64,000 nt of DNA. It comes from Polyangia bacterium. GTDB taxonomy: Bacteria > Myxococcota_A > Polyangia > Polyangiales > JAUICN01. The notes under the pieces are model-generated. The model was not told where the DNA came from, did no database searches, and worked only from the letters and a program-made list of their open reading frames with translations. Location of the stretch: assembly GCA_030427835.1 (NCBI GenBank), contig JAUICN010000001.1, positions 207,929 through 271,928 on the forward strand, written 5' to 3'. This document shows positions 4,019 through 51,513 of the stretch, in pieces; positions within the stretch are counted from its first letter, which is position 1, and the number at the start of each line of letters is the position of its first letter. A program made the translations under genes and the position numbers.

Positions 4019-4065
4019 AGATTTTTCCGCATGTGCTTGTTGGGGTTCTGTGACAGGCCTGGGGG

Positions 4066-5184
4066 ATGCGGTTGGTGTTTGTGTCGCACTCGTTTCCACC
4101 GGTGGGGCGAGAGCAGGAAAATGTGGGGGGCATGCAGCGGGTGGCGATGGAGTTGTTGGCCGAGTTGCAGTCGACGGCGGACCCGCGCCTTGAGAGTTTG
4201 AGCACGATCCTGCTGCGTTCGCCCTGGGAGGGGATCATGCGGCGGGCGGTTCCGTTTCTTGGGACGCTCGCCCCACGTTTGGTTCATCACGTGAGGAAAC
4301 ACCGGGCAGACACGGTGCTGTTCTCCTCCATCACCACGGCGCTACCGCTGCTGGCCTGCGCCCCGGTGTTGAAACGCATGGGCGTACGTGTGGCGTCCAT
4401 TGCCCATGGTTTGGATGTGACCGAGCCCGCCCTGCCCTACCAGCTTGGAGTCAAGGGTGTGTTGCGCCGTTTGGACGCGGTGTTCCCAGTCAGTTCAGCC
4501 ACAGGGGAGCAGTGTGCCCTACGGGGAGCACGACACGTTCAGGTGGTGCCCAACGGCGTGGATCTTTCTCGGTTTGGCGAGAGGCGTGTTGAGGGAGGCA
4601 ATTTGCCGGTGGACGAAGTTACTGACGATGTGGTGCTGCTCACGTCTGTGGGTAGGCAGGTGAAGCGTAAGGGGTTTGAGTTCTTTGTGGATCAGGTGAT
4701 GCCCAAGCTCCCGAACCATGTTTGGTACTGGTTGGCCGGGGATGGGCCTGAGCGTGCGAATATTGAAGCGGCCGTTGTGCGCAACCGGCTTGAAGATCGG
4801 GTGCGGTGCCTTGGCCTGATCGGAGACCCAGAGCTTCAACAGTTGATGGATCGGGCCGATCTTTTTGTGATGCCCAACATCGTGGTGCCTGGGGACATGG
4901 AGGGTTTTGGCATTGTCATGCTTGAGGCGGCCGCCAGCGGCGTGCCTGTGATCGCAGCCTCCCTCGAAGGTATTCGCGACGTGGTTCGGGAGGGTGTGAG
5001 TGGTTTCCTGGTACCCACGGAAGATGCAGACGCATTTGCGGAACGTATTCGCCCCATGGAACGTGCCGCACTTGCAACCTTGGGCGCGTCCGCGAGATCC
5101 GACGTGCAATCCCGCTTCAGCTGGCCTGCGGTGACCGGGCAGTACCTGGAAGCACTCGTCGCAATGCACCCGTTGAACAGCTAG
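4066..5184 (+). CDS. Glycosyltransferase family 4 (GT4) protein
   Basis: A cytoplasmic or membrane-peripheral sugar transferase of the GT-B fold, retaining type, that would move a sugar from an NDP-sugar to a lipid- or polysaccharide-linked acceptor. The N-terminus MRLVFVSHSFPPVGREQENVGG is the usual GT4 opening with the G-rich loop. The C-terminal nucleotide-sugar domain has the ladder GRQVKRKGFEFFVD and the EX7E-type motif GFGIVMLEAAASGVPVIAA near residues 278-300. Length 372 aa is normal. A weak G-run precedes the ATG. It ends four bases into the oppositely oriented transporter gene at 5181. Substrate and acceptor cannot be told from sequence. Confidence 0.88.
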   Translation: MRLVFVSHSFPPVGREQENVGGMQRVAMELLAELQSTADPRLESLSTILLRSPWEGIMRRAVPFLGTLAPRLVHHVRKHRADTVLFSSITTALPLLACAPVLKRMGVRVASIAHGLDVTEPALPYQLGVKGVLRRLDAVFPVSSATGEQCALRGARHVQVVPNGVDLSRFGERRVEGGNLPVDEVTDDVVLLTSVGRQVKRKGFEFFVDQVMPKLPNHVWYWLAGDGPERANIEAAVVRNRLEDRVRCLGLIGDPELQQLMDRADLFVMPNIVVPGDMEGFGIVMLEAAASGVPVIAASLEGIRDVVREGVSGFLVPTEDADAFAERIRPMERAALATLGASARSDVQSRFSWPAVTGQYLEALVAMHPLNS

Positions 5185-5648
5185 AGTTTCTTGGTTTCAA
5201 TACCTGCTCTTGTGCCCACCCACTGGAACAGGACAAAGCCGGCAACCATGCCGCCTCCAAAGAGCAGCGCCTCGGGTAACAGAGCACCCAAGGAAACAAT
5301 GGCGGGGCCGGGGCAAAAGCCACTGAGGCCCCATCCGATACCAAAAAGCGAAGAACCGATGAGGAGGGGCTTGGTGATGTGGGCCTTGGGAGGCATTGAA
5401 AAAGTAGAGGCGAGCGCGGGTTTTTCACGGCGGCGAATCCACCATTGGGCAGGGGCGAATACCAGAATGGCACCGCCCATGACGAAGGCGAGGCTCGGGT
5501 CCCAATCGCCACCAAAGTCGAGGAAGCCCACCACCTTGGAGGGTTGGGTCATGCCGGCGAGCACAAGGCCGATGCCGAAGAGCAACCCACTGACGCCCGC
5601 CACGAACACGGGTGTTTTGCTGAGGGATGGTTTCGCATCCGCGATCAC
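5181..5648 (-). CDS. YeeE/YedE family transporter, second half (155 aa)
   Basis: Inner-membrane protein of the YeeE/YedE (sulfur transport) family, thought to import thiosulfate or other reduced sulfur species. The motif [13 protein letters not shown] near residues 105-118 carries the conserved cysteine of the second repeat. The start is a GTG at 5648 inside GTGA, overlapping the stop of the upstream half-gene at 5645, with GGAGG nine bases upstream, so translation is coupled. Longer reading frames upstream of this GTG are not membrane-like. The family often occurs as one fused gene; here, as in the PmpA/PmpB-type arrangement, two half-size subunits are made. Third gene of the persulfide dioxygenase operon. 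Confidence 0.85.
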
Positions 5649-6088: not shown

Positions 6089-6790
6089 CTAGGGCGCGGT
6101 CGCAAGATTGCCACAGGTCAGGTTGGCGGGGACCGCCACATCCATGTACTTGGGGCTGGGCAAGTTGAGATGTTCCATGATGTCCACGTATTCATCCACG
6201 CTATGGACCTGCAGGCGGGGGTTGTGGCGCTTTTCTTCCCCGATGGTGCTCATGGTGAAGCCCTTGTAGTCGTGACCGGGATAGACAAGGGTGTCCTCGG
6301 GCAAGGTCAACAACTTTTCAAAGAGACTGTTGTACTGCTGGTGAGCATCTCCGTTTTGGAAATCGGTTCGGCCGGTACCGCGAATGAGCAATGTGTCGCC
6401 TGTGAATACCCGGTCGTCCATGAGGTAACAGTAGGAATCGTCCGTGTGGCCCGGGGTGTACAGGGCGCGCAGGTCAATCCCAGGGATGCCCACATCGTCG
6501 CCGTCCTCGGCATGGCGGGTGGCACATTCCGCCTTGGTGCTGGGTCCAAGCCCCATGATGGTCTCGCAGCCCGTACGCTCCCGAAGTGTGCCAAGCGCAG
6601 TCACATGGTCTGCGTGCACATGGGTATCCAGGGCCCGCACAAGTTTAAGGTTGAGTTGCTCGAGCAGACCGAGGTACTTGTTCACGTCCTCCACAACAGG
6701 GTCAATGAGCAGTGCCTCGCCCGTTGCAAGGCTTCCAAGCAAATAGGTGTAGGTACTTGTTTCAGCGTGAAAAAGCTGTCGAAAAATCAT
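6089..6790 (-). CDS. Persulfide dioxygenase (ETHE1/PDO family)
   Basis: Metallo-beta-lactamase-fold, mononuclear iron enzyme that oxidises glutathione persulfide to sulfite and glutathione during sulfide detoxification. The iron/MBL ligands are visible: THVHADH near residues 57-63, YTPGHTDDS near 110, GDTLLIRGTGRTDF with the ligand Asp near 130-143, and YPGHDYKG near 176. The ETHE1-typical ending NLTCGN is present. Start set at ATG 6790 (MIFRQLFHAETSTYTYLLG) because GGAGG sits eight bases upstream and this is the family's usual N-terminus; a Met five codons earlier lacks one. 233 aa is normal. First gene of an operon with two YeeE/YedE half transporters. Confidence 0.93.
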   Translation of the reverse strand: MIFRQLFHAETSTYTYLLGSLATGEALLIDPVVEDVNKYLGLLEQLNLKLVRALDTHVHADHVTALGTLRERTGCETIMGLGPSTKAECATRHAEDGDDVGIPGIDLRALYTPGHTDDSYCYLMDDRVFTGDTLLIRGTGRTDFQNGDAHQQYNSLFEKLLTLPEDTLVYPGHDYKGFTMSTIGEEKRHNPRLQVHSVDEYVDIMEHLNLPSPKYMDVAVPANLTCGNLATAP

Positions 6791-6890
6791 GGGAAGCGCC
6801 TCCATCTAAAACGTAACCATTGAAATAGGAGCGTCTACCACTTCAGAACCGCGGGTTTGCGCGCACCACGATGAACCATGGCATCGGCAC

Positions 6891-12868: not shown

Positions 12869-13378
12869 ATGGAAGGCCCTACTCAAAATGGAGAGATTCT
12901 ATTCACGACTCCCGGTTTGACGGATCTCCAGTGCACGCTTCGGCTGAGCGCCACTTCTCCAGTGGTGTTCAATGCATGGACAGATCCGGACGTGATCCCC
13001 ACATGGCTCCACACGTCGCAGTGGCCCATGGTGGAATGCGTCAGCGATGCACGGCCGGGCGGGGAGCTCCGCTACCGCTGGCGAACGGCGGATGGAAAGG
13101 AGACTGCACTTCGGGGAACCTTTCTTTCCGTGGAGCCTCCGACAAAGTCGCCCATGGGGCGCATTGTGCATCAGGAGGTGTTTGAACCAGACTGGACCGA
13201 CGGTCCGGCCACGGTTACCACGCTCATGGTTCCAGACCGTGATTCATCCACTCGGCTTTCTGTTACCATTCGCTACGTGTCCCAGGAGATGCGGGATCGG
13301 GTGGCGCACTCACCCATGATCGGCGCCATGGAGGAAAATTTTTCCAATCTGCACCATCTATTCAGGAGGGACCAATGA
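12869..13378 (+). CDS. SRPBCC / AHSA1-like domain protein
   Basis: Small protein with a START-like hydrophobic-ligand fold, related to the AHSA1 (activator of Hsp90 ATPase-like) subgroup. Evidence is the opening LSATSPVVFNAWTDPDVIPTWL, a GGELRYRW strand and the closing long helix MIGAMEENFSNLHHLF. Start at ATG 12869; GTG 12851 and TTG 12833 are also in frame and no ribosome-binding site decides between them. It overlaps the next gene by ATGA at 13375-13378, so the two are coupled. The role is unknown. Confidence 0.78.
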   Translation: MEGPTQNGEILFTTPGLTDLQCTLRLSATSPVVFNAWTDPDVIPTWLHTSQWPMVECVSDARPGGELRYRWRTADGKETALRGTFLSVEPPTKSPMGRIVHQEVFEPDWTDGPATVTTLMVPDRDSSTRLSVTIRYVSQEMRDRVAHSPMIGAMEENFSNLHHLFRRDQ

Positions 13379-14073
13379 CGGTTCGAACCCCATTCATCCG
13401 TGCGATTCGCCAGGCGCTGAAGAGGGCGGCTGTACCGGGAGATGCGGCACCGATGCAGGCCTACATGAAGTCTGAAATGCCCTTCTACGGTATCAAGAAG
13501 CCCTTGTTGAAAGCTGCCCTGAAACCCGTTTTGGCGGCATACCCCTTCGAGGGTTGGAACGACCTCCACGATACTTCCCTAGCCCTGTGGCGGGAAGCCA
13601 CGTATCGAGAAGAACGGTACGCGGTTCTCGAACTACTTCGCTTGAGGTGCCACAAGTCTCATCTCACACCGAAAGCCCTGCCCATGTATGAGGAGATGAT
13701 CACCATCGGAGCCTGGTGGGATTTGGTGGATGAAATCGCAGCCCATCAAGTGGGTGCGATCTTGATGTCGGATCCTAAAGCCGTAGGCAAGATCATGCGT
13801 ACATGGTCCACATGTCACGACCTGTGGAAACGGAGGGCTTCGATCCTTTGTCAGTTGCGGCTCAAGGGCGAAACCAATACCACCCTGTTGGCCGCATGCA
13901 TGCGGCCTTCCCTTTCCAGCAAGGAGTTCTTTCTGCGCAAAGCCATCGGTTGGGCACTTCGGGACTACGCACGCACGGATCCCGATTGGGTGCGGGACTA
14001 TGTGGCTACCCACGACACCCAACTCAGCCCCCTGAGCAAACGGGAAGCACTCAAGCACCTATCTGTTGCATGA
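13375..14073 (+). CDS. DNA alkylation repair enzyme (AlkD-like)
   Basis: HEAT-repeat DNA glycosylase family that removes 3- and 7-alkylated purines without base flipping. The family features are all here: KSEMPFYGIKKPLLKAALKPV near residues 31-52, the acidic site WWDLVDEIAAHQVG near 119-132 with the conserved Asp, and SSKEFFLRKAIGWALRDYA near 181-199. Length 232 aa is usual. ATG overlaps the upstream SRPBCC stop (ATGA) and has a strong AGGAGG six bases before it. Its last 15 bases overlap the 3' end of the convergent sigma-factor gene. Confidence 0.92.
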   Translation: MTVRTPFIRAIRQALKRAAVPGDAAPMQAYMKSEMPFYGIKKPLLKAALKPVLAAYPFEGWNDLHDTSLALWREATYREERYAVLELLRLRCHKSHLTPKALPMYEEMITIGAWWDLVDEIAAHQVGAILMSDPKAVGKIMRTWSTCHDLWKRRASILCQLRLKGETNTTLLAACMRPSLSSKEFFLRKAIGWALRDYARTDPDWVRDYVATHDTQLSPLSKREALKHLSVA

Positions 14074-14619
14074 GGTGCAGTTCTTTGGCCTGTAATCCGA
14101 GGGCACATTGCGCCTGTCGAACTCTAGGTGGCAGCAGTCGAGTAGCTTTTCCAGCAACTTCTGTCGACCCCGCTGCACCCGGGACTTCATGCCCGAAAGT
14201 GTGATCCCTGCCCGTTCGGCCGCCTGCTTCTGGGTAAGGCCATCGAGCTCAGTCCATATCACGGCGTGCTGGTATTCCTGTGGGAGTGTGGCCAACAAGG
14301 GTTTCACACATTGACTAAGTTCCTCTGCCGCCGTGGCGTCCATTTGGGGAGCTAGCTCCTGGGGTTCCACCAGAACCTTATCCTTTCTTTCCCGAAGCCG
14401 CCCCATGACTCGGTAGTGATCGACGATGGCGTTGCGAGCGATTTGATACACCCACGATTGGAGGCGGTCGGTACCCTTCAGTTGATCGATGCGCGCGTGG
14501 ATCCTCATGAACACATCCTGAACAATGTCCTCGACCGCGGCGTCGTCATTCACTCGCCGACGTACAAACGCCTGTAGTGGATCGTGGAACCGCCTCCAAA
14601 TATCGTGAGGCGCTTGCAT
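14059..14619 (-). CDS. sigZ: ECF-type RNA polymerase sigma factor, SigZ-like
   Basis: Group IV sigma factor, 186 aa. Region 2 is visible as DDAAVEDIVQDVFMRIHARIDQLKGTDRLQSWVYQIARNAIVDHYR (residues about 28-73), and region 4 as LPQEYQHAVIWTELDGLTQKQAAERAGITLSGMKSRVQRGRQKL. It has the SigZ-type tail CCHLEFDRRNVPSDYRPKNC, a Cys-containing extension that may act as a metal or redox sensor (inference). Start set at 14619, whose ATG overlaps the stop of the Cys-rich peptide gene (TGATG). A longer reading frame to 14709 would only translate that gene out of frame. No anti-sigma gene is adjacent. Confidence 0.88.
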   Translation of the reverse strand: MQAPHDIWRRFHDPLQAFVRRRVNDDAAVEDIVQDVFMRIHARIDQLKGTDRLQSWVYQIARNAIVDHYRVMGRLRERKDKVLVEPQELAPQMDATAAEELSQCVKPLLATLPQEYQHAVIWTELDGLTQKQAAERAGITLSGMKSRVQRGRQKLLEKLLDCCHLEFDRRNVPSDYRPKNCTSCNR

Positions 14620-14816
14620 CAGCAGCAGCGCCTGGCTTCGCAACAGCCGAATGTGCCAGAGGCCTGTTGTGGACTGCAGCAACACACGCAGCAAGCACTG
14701 GCAGCGCACGACGTGTTTGTGTCACCACCGCAGCACACTTCCTGTTCCTTCGCTTCAGCTGGGCCACAACAAATCGCGCCCGGTTCACATTGGTTCGTTT
14801 CGTTCTTTGTCTCCAT
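14619..14816 (-). CDS. Small cysteine-rich protein (65 aa) coupled to sigZ
   Basis: Reads METKNETNQCEPGAICC and ends in RRCC, with 15 cysteines in 65 residues, mostly as CC or CCC clusters (ICC, VCC, ACCVCCC, GCC, RCC). No signal peptide. AAAGG lies nine bases before the ATG at 14816, and its TGA overlaps the sigZ ATG by one base, so the two are translationally coupled. I do not recognise a family. The cysteine density suggests metal or sulfane-sulfur binding, or a thiol sensor for the sigma factor; a modified peptide precursor is another possibility, but no modifying enzyme is next to it. Confidence 0.65.
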   Translation of the reverse strand: METKNETNQCEPGAICCGPAEAKEQEVCCGGDTNTSCAASACCVCCCSPQQASGTFGCCEARRCC

Positions 14817-15123
14817 CTCAATTCGCCTTTCTGAAAACACCTTGGCTTCCACACCCATAGACGAGTGTTGCGCTTCAAAGGACGCAAACCTCCCCCAATC
14901 TATGTTGAAACTTCAAAGTGCCAGATGTCCTTTGTGATGGGTTCCATATGGATATTGACGTTCAAGAAGCTTTCAATGACTTCATTTTGGCTTTTGTCGC
15001 TTGCGGAAATACTTGGCGAGATTTGGCCTTGCTTGGAACACGCTCGACAGAATGTGAAACGCGTTCTATTAACCAATCGGTTTAGGGAGTACGGTCACGG
15101 AATAGGGAAATGGGAGAAGATCG
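14817..15123 (+). other. Divergent intergenic region
   Basis: 307 bp between the Cys-rich/sigZ operon (leftward) and the SRPBCC gene (rightward). A 45-codon frame at 14948-15085 (MDIDVQEAFNDFILAFVACG...) looks protein-like but has no ribosome-binding site and no recognisable family. The sequence is more AT-rich than its surroundings and probably carries promoters in both directions. Confidence 0.35.
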
Positions 15124-15516: not shown

Positions 15517-15577
15517 GCCACCAGGTTTTTTGTAGATACTGCCTCAAAGTTCTGCCTTGCTGAGCTGTGGCCGACCC

Positions 15578-16840
15578 ATGAATGCAAACATCCTTTCCAA
15601 GGCGTATCTCGATGTACGTCGATTGACGGAAACCCTGTCGGCGCCCCTTGGTGCGGAGGATCAGACGGTGCAGTCCATGCCGGACGTGAGCCCAACAAAG
15701 TGGCACCGGGCGCACACCTCCTGGTTTTTTGAAACGTTTATTCTTGGGACTTTCACTGACTGGAAATCCCCGTACCCCCGCTACCGAGAGTTGTTCAACT
15801 CCTACTACGAGCAGGTCGGATGCCAGTTCCCCCGTGAGCAACGGGGTGTCCTGTCTCGGCCCACCGTTTCTGAGGTAAGTGAATACCGGGGCATTGTTGA
15901 CAACGCGATGCTTGAACTCCTGTCGTCTTCAAGGGCCACGGAGGACGTACTGGCACTTGTGGAGCTTGGGCTGCACCACGAGCAACAACACCAGGAACTT
16001 CTTTTGATGGATGCAAAGCATGTGCTGTCGTGTAACCCTCTCGATCCCTGCTATTCGAATACAACACTTCCTTCGATCCATCGGAGCACGCCAGAACACA
16101 GCTGGCTTTCTTTTGATGGAGGTCTGGCGAACATTGGCCATCAGGGGGAAGGTTTTCACTTCGACAATGAAGGCCCTCAGCATCGGGTCTGGCTTGACCC
16201 CTATCAGGTATCCAGAAGCCTTGTGACAGCATCACAGTGGCTTACGTTTATGGAGGACGACGGCTACCAACGCCCCGAACTGTGGCTAGCTGATGGATGG
16301 AGAACGGTTCAGCGTGAAGGGTGGACCGCTCCCCTCTACTGGACAAAAAAACAAGGTGAATGGAACGTGTTTACACTTGGGGGCACACGCCAGCTCATTG
16401 CCCACGAGCCCGTATGCCACGTGAGCTTCTACGAGGCGGATGCCTATTGCAGATGGCTCGGGGCACGGCTGCCGACGGAAGCCGAGTGGGAACGTGCGTC
16501 TGTGATATCCCATGACCCCAAACGCACTCGGTTGTTCGATGTTGGCGCCCTTCACCCATGGCCCCCAACGGAGCATTCGCCCGCAAACCCTTCTTCCTTG
16601 GACCAGATGTTTGGCGAGGTTTGGCAGTGGACCGGTAGCGCCTATCGCCCCTACCCCGGGTACGTGCCGCCGACCAACGCCGTTGGCGAATACAATGGGA
16701 AATTCATGAACAATCAATATGTGCTTCGGGGCGGAAGTGCGTTTACACCCTCGGGTCACGTTCGATCCACCTACCGAAACTTCTACCCTCCCCACAGTCG
16801 ATGGATGTTGTCAGGCGTCCGACTTGCGAAAGACCTGTGA
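15578..16840 (+). CDS. egtB: Ergothioneine biosynthesis sulfoxide synthase EgtB
   Basis: Non-heme iron enzyme joining a thiol donor (gamma-glutamylcysteine or cysteine) to hercynine with O2. The DinB-like N-terminal domain provides the iron histidines H46 (WHRAHTSWFFE) and H134/H138 (HHEQQHQE). The C-terminal formylglycine-generating-enzyme-like domain contains the closing FGEVWQWTGSAYRPYPGY and LRGGSAFTPSGHVRSTYRNF. 420 aa is normal. Start at ATG 15578 (MNANILSKAYLDVRRLTETL); an ATG seven codons upstream is possible. The stop overlaps the egtD ATG by one base (TGATG), forming a tight operon. Confidence 0.93.
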   Translation: MNANILSKAYLDVRRLTETLSAPLGAEDQTVQSMPDVSPTKWHRAHTSWFFETFILGTFTDWKSPYPRYRELFNSYYEQVGCQFPREQRGVLSRPTVSEVSEYRGIVDNAMLELLSSSRATEDVLALVELGLHHEQQHQELLLMDAKHVLSCNPLDPCYSNTTLPSIHRSTPEHSWLSFDGGLANIGHQGEGFHFDNEGPQHRVWLDPYQVSRSLVTASQWLTFMEDDGYQRPELWLADGWRTVQREGWTAPLYWTKKQGEWNVFTLGGTRQLIAHEPVCHVSFYEADAYCRWLGARLPTEAEWERASVISHDPKRTRLFDVGALHPWPPTEHSPANPSSLDQMFGEVWQWTGSAYRPYPGYVPPTNAVGEYNGKFMNNQYVLRGGSAFTPSGHVRSTYRNFYPPHSRWMLSGVRLAKDL

Positions 16841-17826
16841 TGCCAAAACCCTATTCTCAAGTTGCTCCTAGTATCGACGTGCACCTCCAGCCCGATTGGG
16901 CACGTATTGCGCTTGAAAGAGATGTGCGCCGTGCGCTCACGGTGAAACCAAGAGTTCTACCCCCAAAGTGGTTCTACGATGCCCGCGGAAGCGCGCTGTT
17001 TCACCAAATCACACAACTCAAGGAGTATTATCCCACTGAAACCGAGCGCCGTATTCTGGCACAACAGGCGGCAACCATCGTGGATCTGAGTGGTGCGGAA
17101 ACTTTGATTGAATTGGGTTCAGGCACCTCAGACAAAACTCGAGTCCTGCTCGATGCGTTTACACAGCGGAACCAGTTGCAACGGTTTGTCCCGTTTGACG
17201 TGAGCGAAGCACCGCTGCGGCAAGCCATGGATACCCTCGGCCTGCAATACCCCCATCTGTCGTTGCGCGGTATTGTCGGCGATTTTACCCAGCATCTTGG
17301 GTTGCTTCCCACGGGCGGGCGCAGATTGATTGCGTTCCTTGGGGGTACCATTGGCAACTTCTATCCCGAGGAGCGGCAGATTTTTCTCGAAAATGTGGCC
17401 CGTACGTTGCAACCCGGGGATGGATTGCTTCTTGGGACCGATCTCATCAAGGATCCGGTGCGACTCGTCGCTGCCTACGATGATCCGGGTGGAGTCACCG
17501 CGGAGTTCAACCTCAATGCCCTGCACGTGATCAACCGTACATTGGGTGCAAATTTTGACGTCACGGCCTGGGAACATGTCGCCCTATGGGACGCAGAGCA
17601 TGAGTGGATGGACCTTCGTGTACAAAGCAAGCGCCTGCAAAGCGTTCACGTGCATGCCTTGGACCTGACCGTTTCCTTTGAAACGGGTGATTGGATTCAA
17701 ACAGAAATCAGCACCAAGTTTAGACAGGAGCGTGTACAGCAGGAGCTCACTTCCGCGGGCTTTGATTCCGTCACGTCCTGGACGGACCCTGCGGGAGACT
17801 TCAACCTAAGCCTTGCTCTGCGGTAG
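16840..17826 (+). CDS. egtD: L-histidine N(alpha)-methyltransferase EgtD
   Basis: SAM-dependent enzyme trimethylating histidine to hercynine, the first step of ergothioneine synthesis. Signatures are PPKWFYDARGSALFHQITQLKEYYPTETERRIL near residues 40-72, the SAM loop LIELGSGTSDKTRVLLDAF, LGGTIGNFYPEE, and YDDPGGVTAEFNLNALHVINR. 328 aa. The start at 16840 overlaps the egtB stop; a longer frame reaching 16801 only reads into egtB. Together egtB and egtD are the minimal ergothioneine set, and the remaining C-S lyase step must be encoded elsewhere. Confidence 0.93.
   Translation: MPKPYSQVAPSIDVHLQPDWARIALERDVRRALTVKPRVLPPKWFYDARGSALFHQITQLKEYYPTETERRILAQQAATIVDLSGAETLIELGSGTSDKTRVLLDAFTQRNQLQRFVPFDVSEAPLRQAMDTLGLQYPHLSLRGIVGDFTQHLGLLPTGGRRLIAFLGGTIGNFYPEERQIFLENVARTLQPGDGLLLGTDLIKDPVRLVAAYDDPGGVTAEFNLNALHVINRTLGANFDVTAWEHVALWDAEHEWMDLRVQSKRLQSVHVHALDLTVSFETGDWIQTEISTKFRQERVQQELTSAGFDSVTSWTDPAGDFNLSLALR

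Positions 17827-47178: not shown

Positions 47179-47182
<4 letters not shown>
46547..47182 (-). CDS. CDF-like cation transporter lacking the C-terminal domain
   Basis: 211-aa inner-membrane protein of the cation diffusion facilitator type, with about six membrane spans. The TM2 motif AVADSIALLGFGLDSGIETAAA has the metal-site acidic residues; the second metal site in TM5 is not in its canonical form. The usual cytoplasmic C-terminal domain is missing and a short EECECHE tail with two Cys and one His replaces it. GTG start overlapping the czcA stop (GTGA). Such truncated CDFs often follow czcA and may feed cations to the pump. Confidence 0.85.
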
Positions 47183-50310
<3,128 letters not shown>

Positions 50311-50319
50311 GACGTTCTC

Positions 50320-51513
50320 CTAGTGCGCATGGCCTTCGCCGAGTTCGCCGCGGCTGAGCTCGGACTTGAGGACGAAGGCGCCGTCGGCGACGTAGCGGTC
50401 GCCGCCAGCCAGCCCATGACCTATGCGCGCGAGACCACCGCTGCGAGCCGAGACCGTCACGGAGACTGCGCGAAACTCGCCTTCTTCGTCACCGGGCACG
50501 AAGACGACGGTCTCGTCACCGAGCCGCTGCAGCGCCGAGGTGGCGACGGCTGGGATGGTGTCCTCTCCTGCACTGGCCGGACTGACCGATAGCGTTCCGA
50601 ATGAACCGGGTCGTAACGCGCCGTCCGCGTTGTCGAGAGACATACGGACGGGAAGGGTCCGTGTTCCCTCATCGAGTGCCGGCGCGACGTAGTCGAGCTG
50701 TCCTGCAAAGGTGCGGCCTGGATGCGACTGCAGGGTGAGCGTGGCCCGTGCCCCTTCGTGCACCTGGGCAGCATGCTGCTGGTAGACCCGCCCGACCACC
50801 CACACCTTGGTGATGTCCGTGACCTCAAAGAGCACATCACCTGGGCCCACGACCTCGCCCACGGTTGCGTGACGTGACACCACGCGCCCCGCGATCGGGC
50901 TCCGGATCGTCACCTCACTACCGCTTCCACCCCGCCCGTAGACTTCGAGAGCTCGCTCAGCGGCGGACTGCTCCGCTTGCGCGCGTCGTAGCTCGGCCTG
51001 TGCCTCCAGGTAATGCCGGTCCGCCCCAATGCCTTCGCGTTTGAGCTCCTCCTGACGACGGAAGTTCGCGTCGGCCACCTCGACGTTGGCGCGCGCACGG
51101 GCCGCCTGGGCTCGGGCTTCGCCCAGGGCGACGCTGCGGATCACCGCGAGGGCTTGTCCGGATTCCACCCGGTCGCCCACCGAGGCCGACACACGAGCGA
51201 TCTGACCGGAGACGACCGACGAGACGTGCGCCTTGCGATCGGGCTCGGCCTGTACCTCCGCGGGAACGTCAATTCCACCTGCGCGCGGTACGGCTTCCGC
51301 GGTTGCGATCCGGATGCCGCTTCGTGCGACCGCTTCCGGCCCAATGCGAACGATGCGCTCACCGCCGTGCTCGTCGTGGTGCCCCTCCTCGTGACGTTCA
51401 CCCTGCTCGGCGTGAGAGGACTCTTCGTGCCCGTGTCCGGATTTCTCCTTGCAGCCACTCAAGCCGAGAAGGAGAAGTACAGCGCCCATGGCGATAAGCT
51501 TGAGGTGATTCAT
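50320..51513 (-). CDS. czcB: RND efflux periplasmic adaptor, CzcB-like (copy 2)
   Basis: 397-aa lipoprotein adaptor: [21 protein letters not shown] has lipobox LSGC, followed by a histidine-rich linker ([20 protein letters not shown]...) of about 30 residues that should bind metal ions. The barrel-sandwich and coiled hairpin follow ([52 protein letters not shown]). The C-terminus ends LGEGHAH. ATGA overlap with czcC. Copy 1 lacks the His-rich linker. Confidence 0.93.

Follow-up and report, generated by a model that had tools for sequence, protein, structure and literature searches.

A cysteine-rich peptide gene coupled to sigZ in a Polyangia genome and its candidate role in a self-sensing metalloid response

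Why should a gene for a 65-residue peptide with 15 cysteines be tied to the gene of a sigma factor? The pair lies in a 64,000-nucleotide stretch of DNA (the window) from a Polyangia bacterium, the genome of which (3.3 Mb, 98% complete) is the sole member of its family among the genomes compared. SigZ was first named in Bacillus subtilis; it is widespread, and to our knowledge neither a signal nor a regulon has been assigned to it, nor an arsenic role to the B. subtilis protein. Our search of the open-access literature, with subscription journals outside its scope, returned no paper connecting SigZ with arsenic. The locus contains the following features.

14619-14816, minus strand: Cys-rich peptide gene, 65 amino acids with 15 Cys, read from the sequence.
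14059-14619, minus strand: sigZ, an ECF sigma factor gene of 186 codons, assigned by profile match.
14826-14830, minus strand: AAAGG, ribosome-binding-like by sequence, 9 nt ahead of the peptide ATG.
14068-14136, minus strand: SigZ Cys tail, residues 162-184 (CC, beta-hairpin, CxxC), the proposed metalloid sensor.
14859-14886, minus strand: predicted SigZ-type promoter, -35 TGCGTCCTTT, -10 CGTCTA (last A = 14858).
13375-14073, strand opposite to sigZ: convergent downstream gene (PF08713), overlapping the end of sigZ.

The 65-residue, 15-Cys gene with its AAAGG and its TGATG, in which the TGA stop of the peptide overlaps the ATG start of sigZ, had been described in a sequence-only reading of this DNA and was confirmed from the sequence. 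Its cysteines form six CC or CCC clusters plus two lone residues, and it ranks first in Cys richness among the 613 window ORFs of at least 40 amino acids. In 20 surrogate sequences drawn from a first-order Markov model of the window, no 65-codon stop-free stretch contained more than 11 Cys, against 15 in the peptide. The peptide gene coupled to sigZ is a real, non-chance unit. An alternative 79-residue version of the frame starts at 14858, which is the final base of the predicted -10 (CGTCTA), and the 65-residue start is therefore preferred. No anti-sigma gene accompanies the pair, as that reading had also stated, and by the ORF list the operon contains no gene beyond these two. Another Cys-rich ORF of the window, at 49134-49346, was rejected, being out of frame within an RND pump gene.

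Neither Pfam nor NCBIfam matched the peptide at E values up to 1, including as a metallothionein, and there was likewise no match among PDB sequences (E up to 1) or in PADLOC; the earlier statement that the peptide has no described family thus holds for these collections. The plasmid collection searched with the peptide also gave no match, a result weakened by the BLAST low-complexity filter. The window peptide shares its small size, Cys richness and CC pairs with metallothioneins of bacteria and with metallochaperones that hold As(III) by Cys pairs, such as ArsD, and differs in having no family match; 15 Cys in 65 residues suggest that it may bind metal in a metallothionein-like manner.

The genomic company of SigZ was examined at 103 distinct places from the order and class of the window genome, of which 94, including the window, were counted. 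Those not counted were G161:C196, G135, G139 and G179, together with G001, G223, G270, G290 and G160, where the SigZ match was under the 90-bit cut; two of the latter five have ArsI, two have no sought neighbour and one is unclassified. A gene was considered directly upstream if it ended no more than 100 bp before sigZ or overlapped it by up to 40, and neighbours were identified using a few BLAST queries for arsenic-type genes and FAD monooxygenase, so that 'none' means none of those. Directly upstream of sigZ we found ArsM at 58 of the 94 class places, ArsI at 11 and a CC-rich peptide at 3; another 17 have ArsM, ArsI or FAD monooxygenase elsewhere within the stretch, on either strand, and 5 have none of the sought neighbours. 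For 32 new places from the phylum, a direct partner was found in 26 (ArsM 16, ArsI 5, one of which overlaps sigZ by 42 bp, ArsC 3 and CC peptide 2), ArsM or ACR3 lies 130-200 bp away in two, and four have no sought neighbour. All class and phylum places were reached via SigZ only; the 144-place set used for the tree, tail, offset and CC-end counts includes a few reached via ArsM or promoter searches. Seven SigZ loci from other phyla have ArsM within the stretch in four cases and match none of the queries in three. Example ArsM and ArsI neighbour proteins score over the cut-offs of NF008823 and NF041414. None of the six other ECF loci in the window genome has an arsenic-type, CC-peptide or FAD monooxygenase neighbour. 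The presence of arsenic genes in most relatives examined suggests a job for the little-understood SigZ.

ACR3-ArsC-SigZ operons in L190, L195 and L196 belong to a separate SigZ clade, with a promoter match in L190 only. Many ArsM matches (G033, G038, G040, G042 and others) hold one in-frame TGA, perhaps encoding selenocysteine.

A promoter was found de novo in the DNA ahead of arsM-sigZ or arsI-sigZ pairs, for which 67 regions were used. The most frequent dyad, GCGTC-N16-CGTC, is present in 58 of the 67, and one further region (L129) has it with N17; the best dyad across five shuffles reached 8 of 67. The consensus, TGCGTCCwTy-N11-nCGTCTT, mostly lies 35-70 bp ahead of the start of the protein match. 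In the window, the CGTC of the predicted promoter ends 43 nt upstream of the peptide ATG, and its spacer is one base longer than usual, the same spacing as in L129. This site is the sole match to TGCGTCC-N14..18-CGTCT in 64 kb (expected 0.08), and its PWM score is 24.4, with the runner-up within the window at 15.5.

Using a matrix trained on the class loci and a score cut of 17 chosen after seeing the scores, 89 of 99 loci score at least 17 and 10 do not; the 99 comprise 92 from the class, among them the training loci, and L008-L014 from other phyla. Outside the training set, this score is attained by 26 of the 32 phylum loci, with 6 falling short, compared with 2 of 60 shuffled loci and none of the window genome's six other ECF loci (best 12.1). 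Six of the seven other-phylum SigZ loci score over 20. The plasmid collection supplied six SigZ loci, of which only two reach 17 (L074, 21.5; L075, 22.5), the remainder scoring 16.8 (L076), 14.7 (L077), 10.8 (L078) and 5.6 (L079). A scan of 289 genomes, those used for training among them, found the N16 pattern in 52 of the 85 with SigZ and in 19 of the 204 lacking SigZ (p = 2e-19); for N17, the spacing of the window, taken by itself the figures were 12 of 85 and 15 of 204, which is not significant (p = 0.06). Among 30 ArsM loci, the promoter is present at all 12 that have sigZ within the stretch and at 2 of the 18 that do not. These two exceptions are G165, where sigZ lies elsewhere in the genome, and G130, in which no SigZ match passed the cut and which is therefore one of the 19 genomes that carry the N16 pattern but no matching SigZ; there the pattern precedes arsM. 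From this co-occurrence we infer that SigZ reads the TGCGTCC...CGTCT promoter. The likely promoter and the recurring arsenic enzymes make SigZ function directly testable. The SigZ of a Priestia megaterium plasmid, which is without late Cys and has no annotated arsenic gene in its stretch, has a promoter score of 16.8. PMC6713349 places a C at -34 of the B. subtilis SigZ promoter, which would fit the TGC of our consensus as T-36 G-35 C-34.

A larger regulon in the window genome was sought and rejected: exact TGCGTCC-N14..16-CGTC gave 6 matches versus 10 in a reversed control, and TTT follows TGCGTCC in the peptide promoter only. The ergothioneine genes (15557-17826), which pass their cut-offs, and a persulfide-type gene (6089-6805), which related models matched only below cut-off, have no SigZ-type promoter. 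They were excluded as SigZ targets on this basis, leaving the previously proposed persulfide and ergothioneine link unsupported.

The sigma factor itself bears out its earlier assignment to the SigZ type, scoring 192.1 bits against TIGR02959 (cut-off 168.65) and 199.9 against NF007215, below the cut-off of 212. Sigma regions 2 and 4 (PF04542 and PF08281) both exceed the gathering score, as in an ECF sigma factor. Cysteines are found at 104, 162, 163, 181 and 184, the last four making up the Cys-bearing tail already remarked on, and this tail is conserved. All 55 SigZ proteins of an alignment have C163 and D168, and at least 90% have C162; the 55 rows derive from 60 of 63 eligible proteins, with L077, L177, a third L101 copy (bad coordinates), L215 and L124 omitted by choice. 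Among 127 SigZ with a recognisable region 4 end, CC occurs no more than 22 residues further on in 110, and 101 of these 110 have at least two later Cys. The predicted structure (mean pLDDT 89.6, pTM 0.51), built from a 50-row alignment, places a hairpin (E163-167/E173-178; block pLDDT 91 and 87) directly after C162-C163 and the CxxC (181, 184) in the last model block (pLDDT 79). Besides three other rows, this alignment omits L117 and L123, which are without late Cys and were left out by choice, so that C184 conservation in it is flattered and was not used. Five SigZ have the CC but no later Cys, and none has a direct arsenic partner; since three of the five form one clade, an association between late-Cys loss and an absent arsenic partner is suggestive only.

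The SigZ clade without late tail Cys (L117, L123, L138 and the third L101 copy) has no direct arsenic partners, and the best nearby promoter scores are mixed (20.2, 14.9 and 12.7 for L117, L123 and L138, respectively). The window SigZ had no firm placement in the tree. A viral origin of SigZ was considered and dropped, with no relative confirmed among viral contigs.

A Cys-rich tail has a precedent in Myxococcus xanthus. As described in PMC10141476, CorE and CorE2 are regulated by their own Cys-rich C-terminal extension without an anti-sigma and have metal-defence targets, and a CxC motif separates sigma regions 2 and 4 of CorE. The window SigZ resembles CorE in its conserved, confidently modelled Cys tail and in having no anti-sigma gene in its operon, and differs in having no CxC between regions 2 and 4 and in its partner genes. 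If the inference holds, SigZ would work like CorE, with metal bound by its tail switching its activity, and sigma factors that sense a metal or metalloid themselves would then comprise two classes, CorE and SigZ.

Taken together, the lack of an anti-sigma gene, the conserved Cys tail, the own-type promoter and the arsenic partners indicate that SigZ is probably its own sensor. We therefore favour, with moderate confidence, a self-activating operon of SigZ and peptide, in which the C-terminal Cys tail (CC, hairpin and CxxC) would sense a metalloid with an affinity for thiols, As(III) being the likeliest. Metalloid-loaded SigZ would bring RNA polymerase to TGCGTCC...CGTCT promoters and transcribe its own operon, yielding more SigZ and more of the Cys-rich peptide; the peptide would bind and buffer the metalloid, and stop-start coupling would hold the two products in proportion. 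Because its own promoter is the sole convincing one found in the genome, the response would amount to more SigZ and peptide. Searches of the window genome gave no match for ArsM, for ArsI (positive control detected) or for ACR3 (a search that lacked a positive control), and sequestration by the peptide is thus the only evident output. For the same reason, the arsenic link in this genome is made by analogy with relatives, from which As(III) is the presumed ligand. In those relatives, ArsM and ArsI, usually CC-tailed, occupy the same place behind the same promoter, which makes the peptide look like a stand-alone sequestering module.

A broader proposal, which we offer only tentatively, is that SigZ commands an arsenic-response regulon of its own built on vicinal Cys pairs, the same device serving in the sensor tail, the enzyme ends and the stand-alone peptide. 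The window would represent the minimal form, where the peptide, at a fixed ratio to SigZ, would compete for the ligand and in this way both protect and shut SigZ off.

In this lineage, the same circuit might instead respond to a thiophilic stress other than arsenic, whether from Cd, Zn, Cu, Hg, Sb, Bi or reactive sulfur, the peptide acting as a general metallothionein-like buffer and arsenic being only the use that relatives make of SigZ. The Cys-tailed CorE and CorE2 respond to Cu, Cd and Zn (PMC10141476), which would agree with this alternative. Also on its side are the missing ArsM, ArsI and ACR3 matches in the window genome, the membership of ArsI in the ArsI/CadI heavy-metal family and a heavy-metal-type RND pump seen by eye at 47-50 kb. 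We consider it rather unlikely, however, as the recurring SigZ neighbours are arsenic enzymes (only arsenic-type genes and FAD monooxygenase having been sought) and CC pairs suit As(III). The pump region itself (47179-51513, minus strand) comprises CzcA/CzcB-like pump and adaptor genes as judged by eye and is possibly another metal-defence system of this genome.

Partner and sigma factor are tightly joined: measured to the in-frame start closest to the partner's stop, the offset is -3 in 70 and 0 in 5 of the 101 sigZ that have a direct partner. CC is found within the final 15 residues of 58 of 75 sigZ-adjacent ArsM and of 17 of 17 ArsI. These CCxPxCC-like ends share the operon place and the promoter of the window peptide, although the Cys pairs of ArsM and ArsI terminate an enzyme, whereas the peptide stands alone with 15 Cys. 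Both the coupling and the CC ends would also be expected if the peptide, and the ArsM and ArsI tails likewise, regulated SigZ as sensor or anti-sigma, by binding it or by withholding or donating its ligand. This seems improbable to us, given that CC tails also occur, as judged by eye, on 9 of 18 ArsM without sigZ in the stretch (for which reason the tail was abandoned as a marker of sigZ-coupled ArsM), that 17 of the 75 adjacent ArsM have none, and that the partner varies while SigZ retains its own Cys tail. As the coupled place is mostly taken by an enzyme (ArsM at 58 and ArsI at 11 of the 94 class places, the peptide at 3), coupling points to co-expression rather than a dedicated sensor. The sequence-only reading had proposed the peptide as a sensor or a sulfur/metal ligand for SigZ; a role as a metal ligand fits the arsenic neighbourhood, and that as a sensor has become less likely.

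Free CC-rich peptides are encoded directly upstream, within ~60 bp, of five other sigZ (L120, L219, L194, L204 and L075), the last of these from Nonomuraea gerenzanensis, an actinomycete of another phylum. Looking for small Cys-rich genes upstream of other sigZ had been suggested earlier, with their non-conservation there to count against the unit; the genes are present, and all six units carry the same promoter. The peptides of L219 (67 amino acids, 16 Cys) and L204 (72 amino acids, 20 Cys) are comparable in Cys density to that of the window, and those of L120, L194 and L075 have 8 Cys each. The window peptide belongs with them by the definition of the set, as a short free-standing gene with at least three CC pairs, located before sigZ and behind a SigZ-type promoter. 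Of 11 CC-peptide genes, 9 are preceded by the promoter within 250 bp, those of all six peptide-sigZ units among them; the two without it directly upstream (L101 and L112) are located behind sigZ in an operon; none of 3,300 shuffled 250-bp windows reached a score of 20. A subgroup (L075, L120, L121, L131 and L110) has the pattern CC-x6-8-CC-x-P-x-x-K-x-x-CC in common, to which the window peptide aligns poorly, sharing only a CC-G-P-x-E/A-K...CC-like part. The six peptide-sigZ cases occupy six separate places in a quick SigZ tree; they may have a common origin. Scanned over the 289 genomes, a seven-peptide model recovered its five members present there and one weak new match (G279), in a genome with no SigZ match; the window genome has a single matching place, that of the peptide, which the model itself contains. 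These findings indicate a very Cys-rich peptide set that is described in none of Pfam, NCBIfam, PADLOC and the PDB sequences. That the peptide ORF is untranslated and serves as a leader RNA of sigZ is most improbable, for although no close relative among the compared genomes allows a codon-level comparison, its 15 Cys exceed all 20 surrogates, it has a ribosome-binding-like AAAGG and the TGATG overlap, and CC-peptide genes lie at the same place before five other sigZ.

What comes next to the CC peptide in L131, L112 and L101 is not sigZ but a CC-tailed FAD monooxygenase, which starts within a base of the peptide gene or overlaps it as TGATG. Weakly ArsO-like FAD monooxygenases with a CC-containing C-terminal end lie near SigZ or CC peptides in L101, L112, L120, L121, L131, L110 and L075; several have a SigZ-type promoter, and they possibly represent an undescribed arsenic enzyme. 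Also present at the Nonomuraea locus (L075) are two regulators of the ArsR/SmtB family, which exceed the NF033788 cut-off, and a flavoprotein that resembles ArsO but falls short of its cut-off. In the Vibrio records L078 and L079, sigZ is preceded by an ArsR-looking frame ending in Cys residues (by eye), and no SigZ-type promoter was seen at these loci. Upstream of sigZ in Marinobacterium jannaschii (L014:4101-4820) lies a glutathione-S-transferase-like protein (by eye) that ends in SGSCC and is preceded by a SigZ-type promoter at 4036. Finally, an actinobacterial MAG (L010) has a SigZ-type promoter at 4246 before a DF-family (seleno)protein (4397-5221), which is under the family cut-off and contains several CC stretches.
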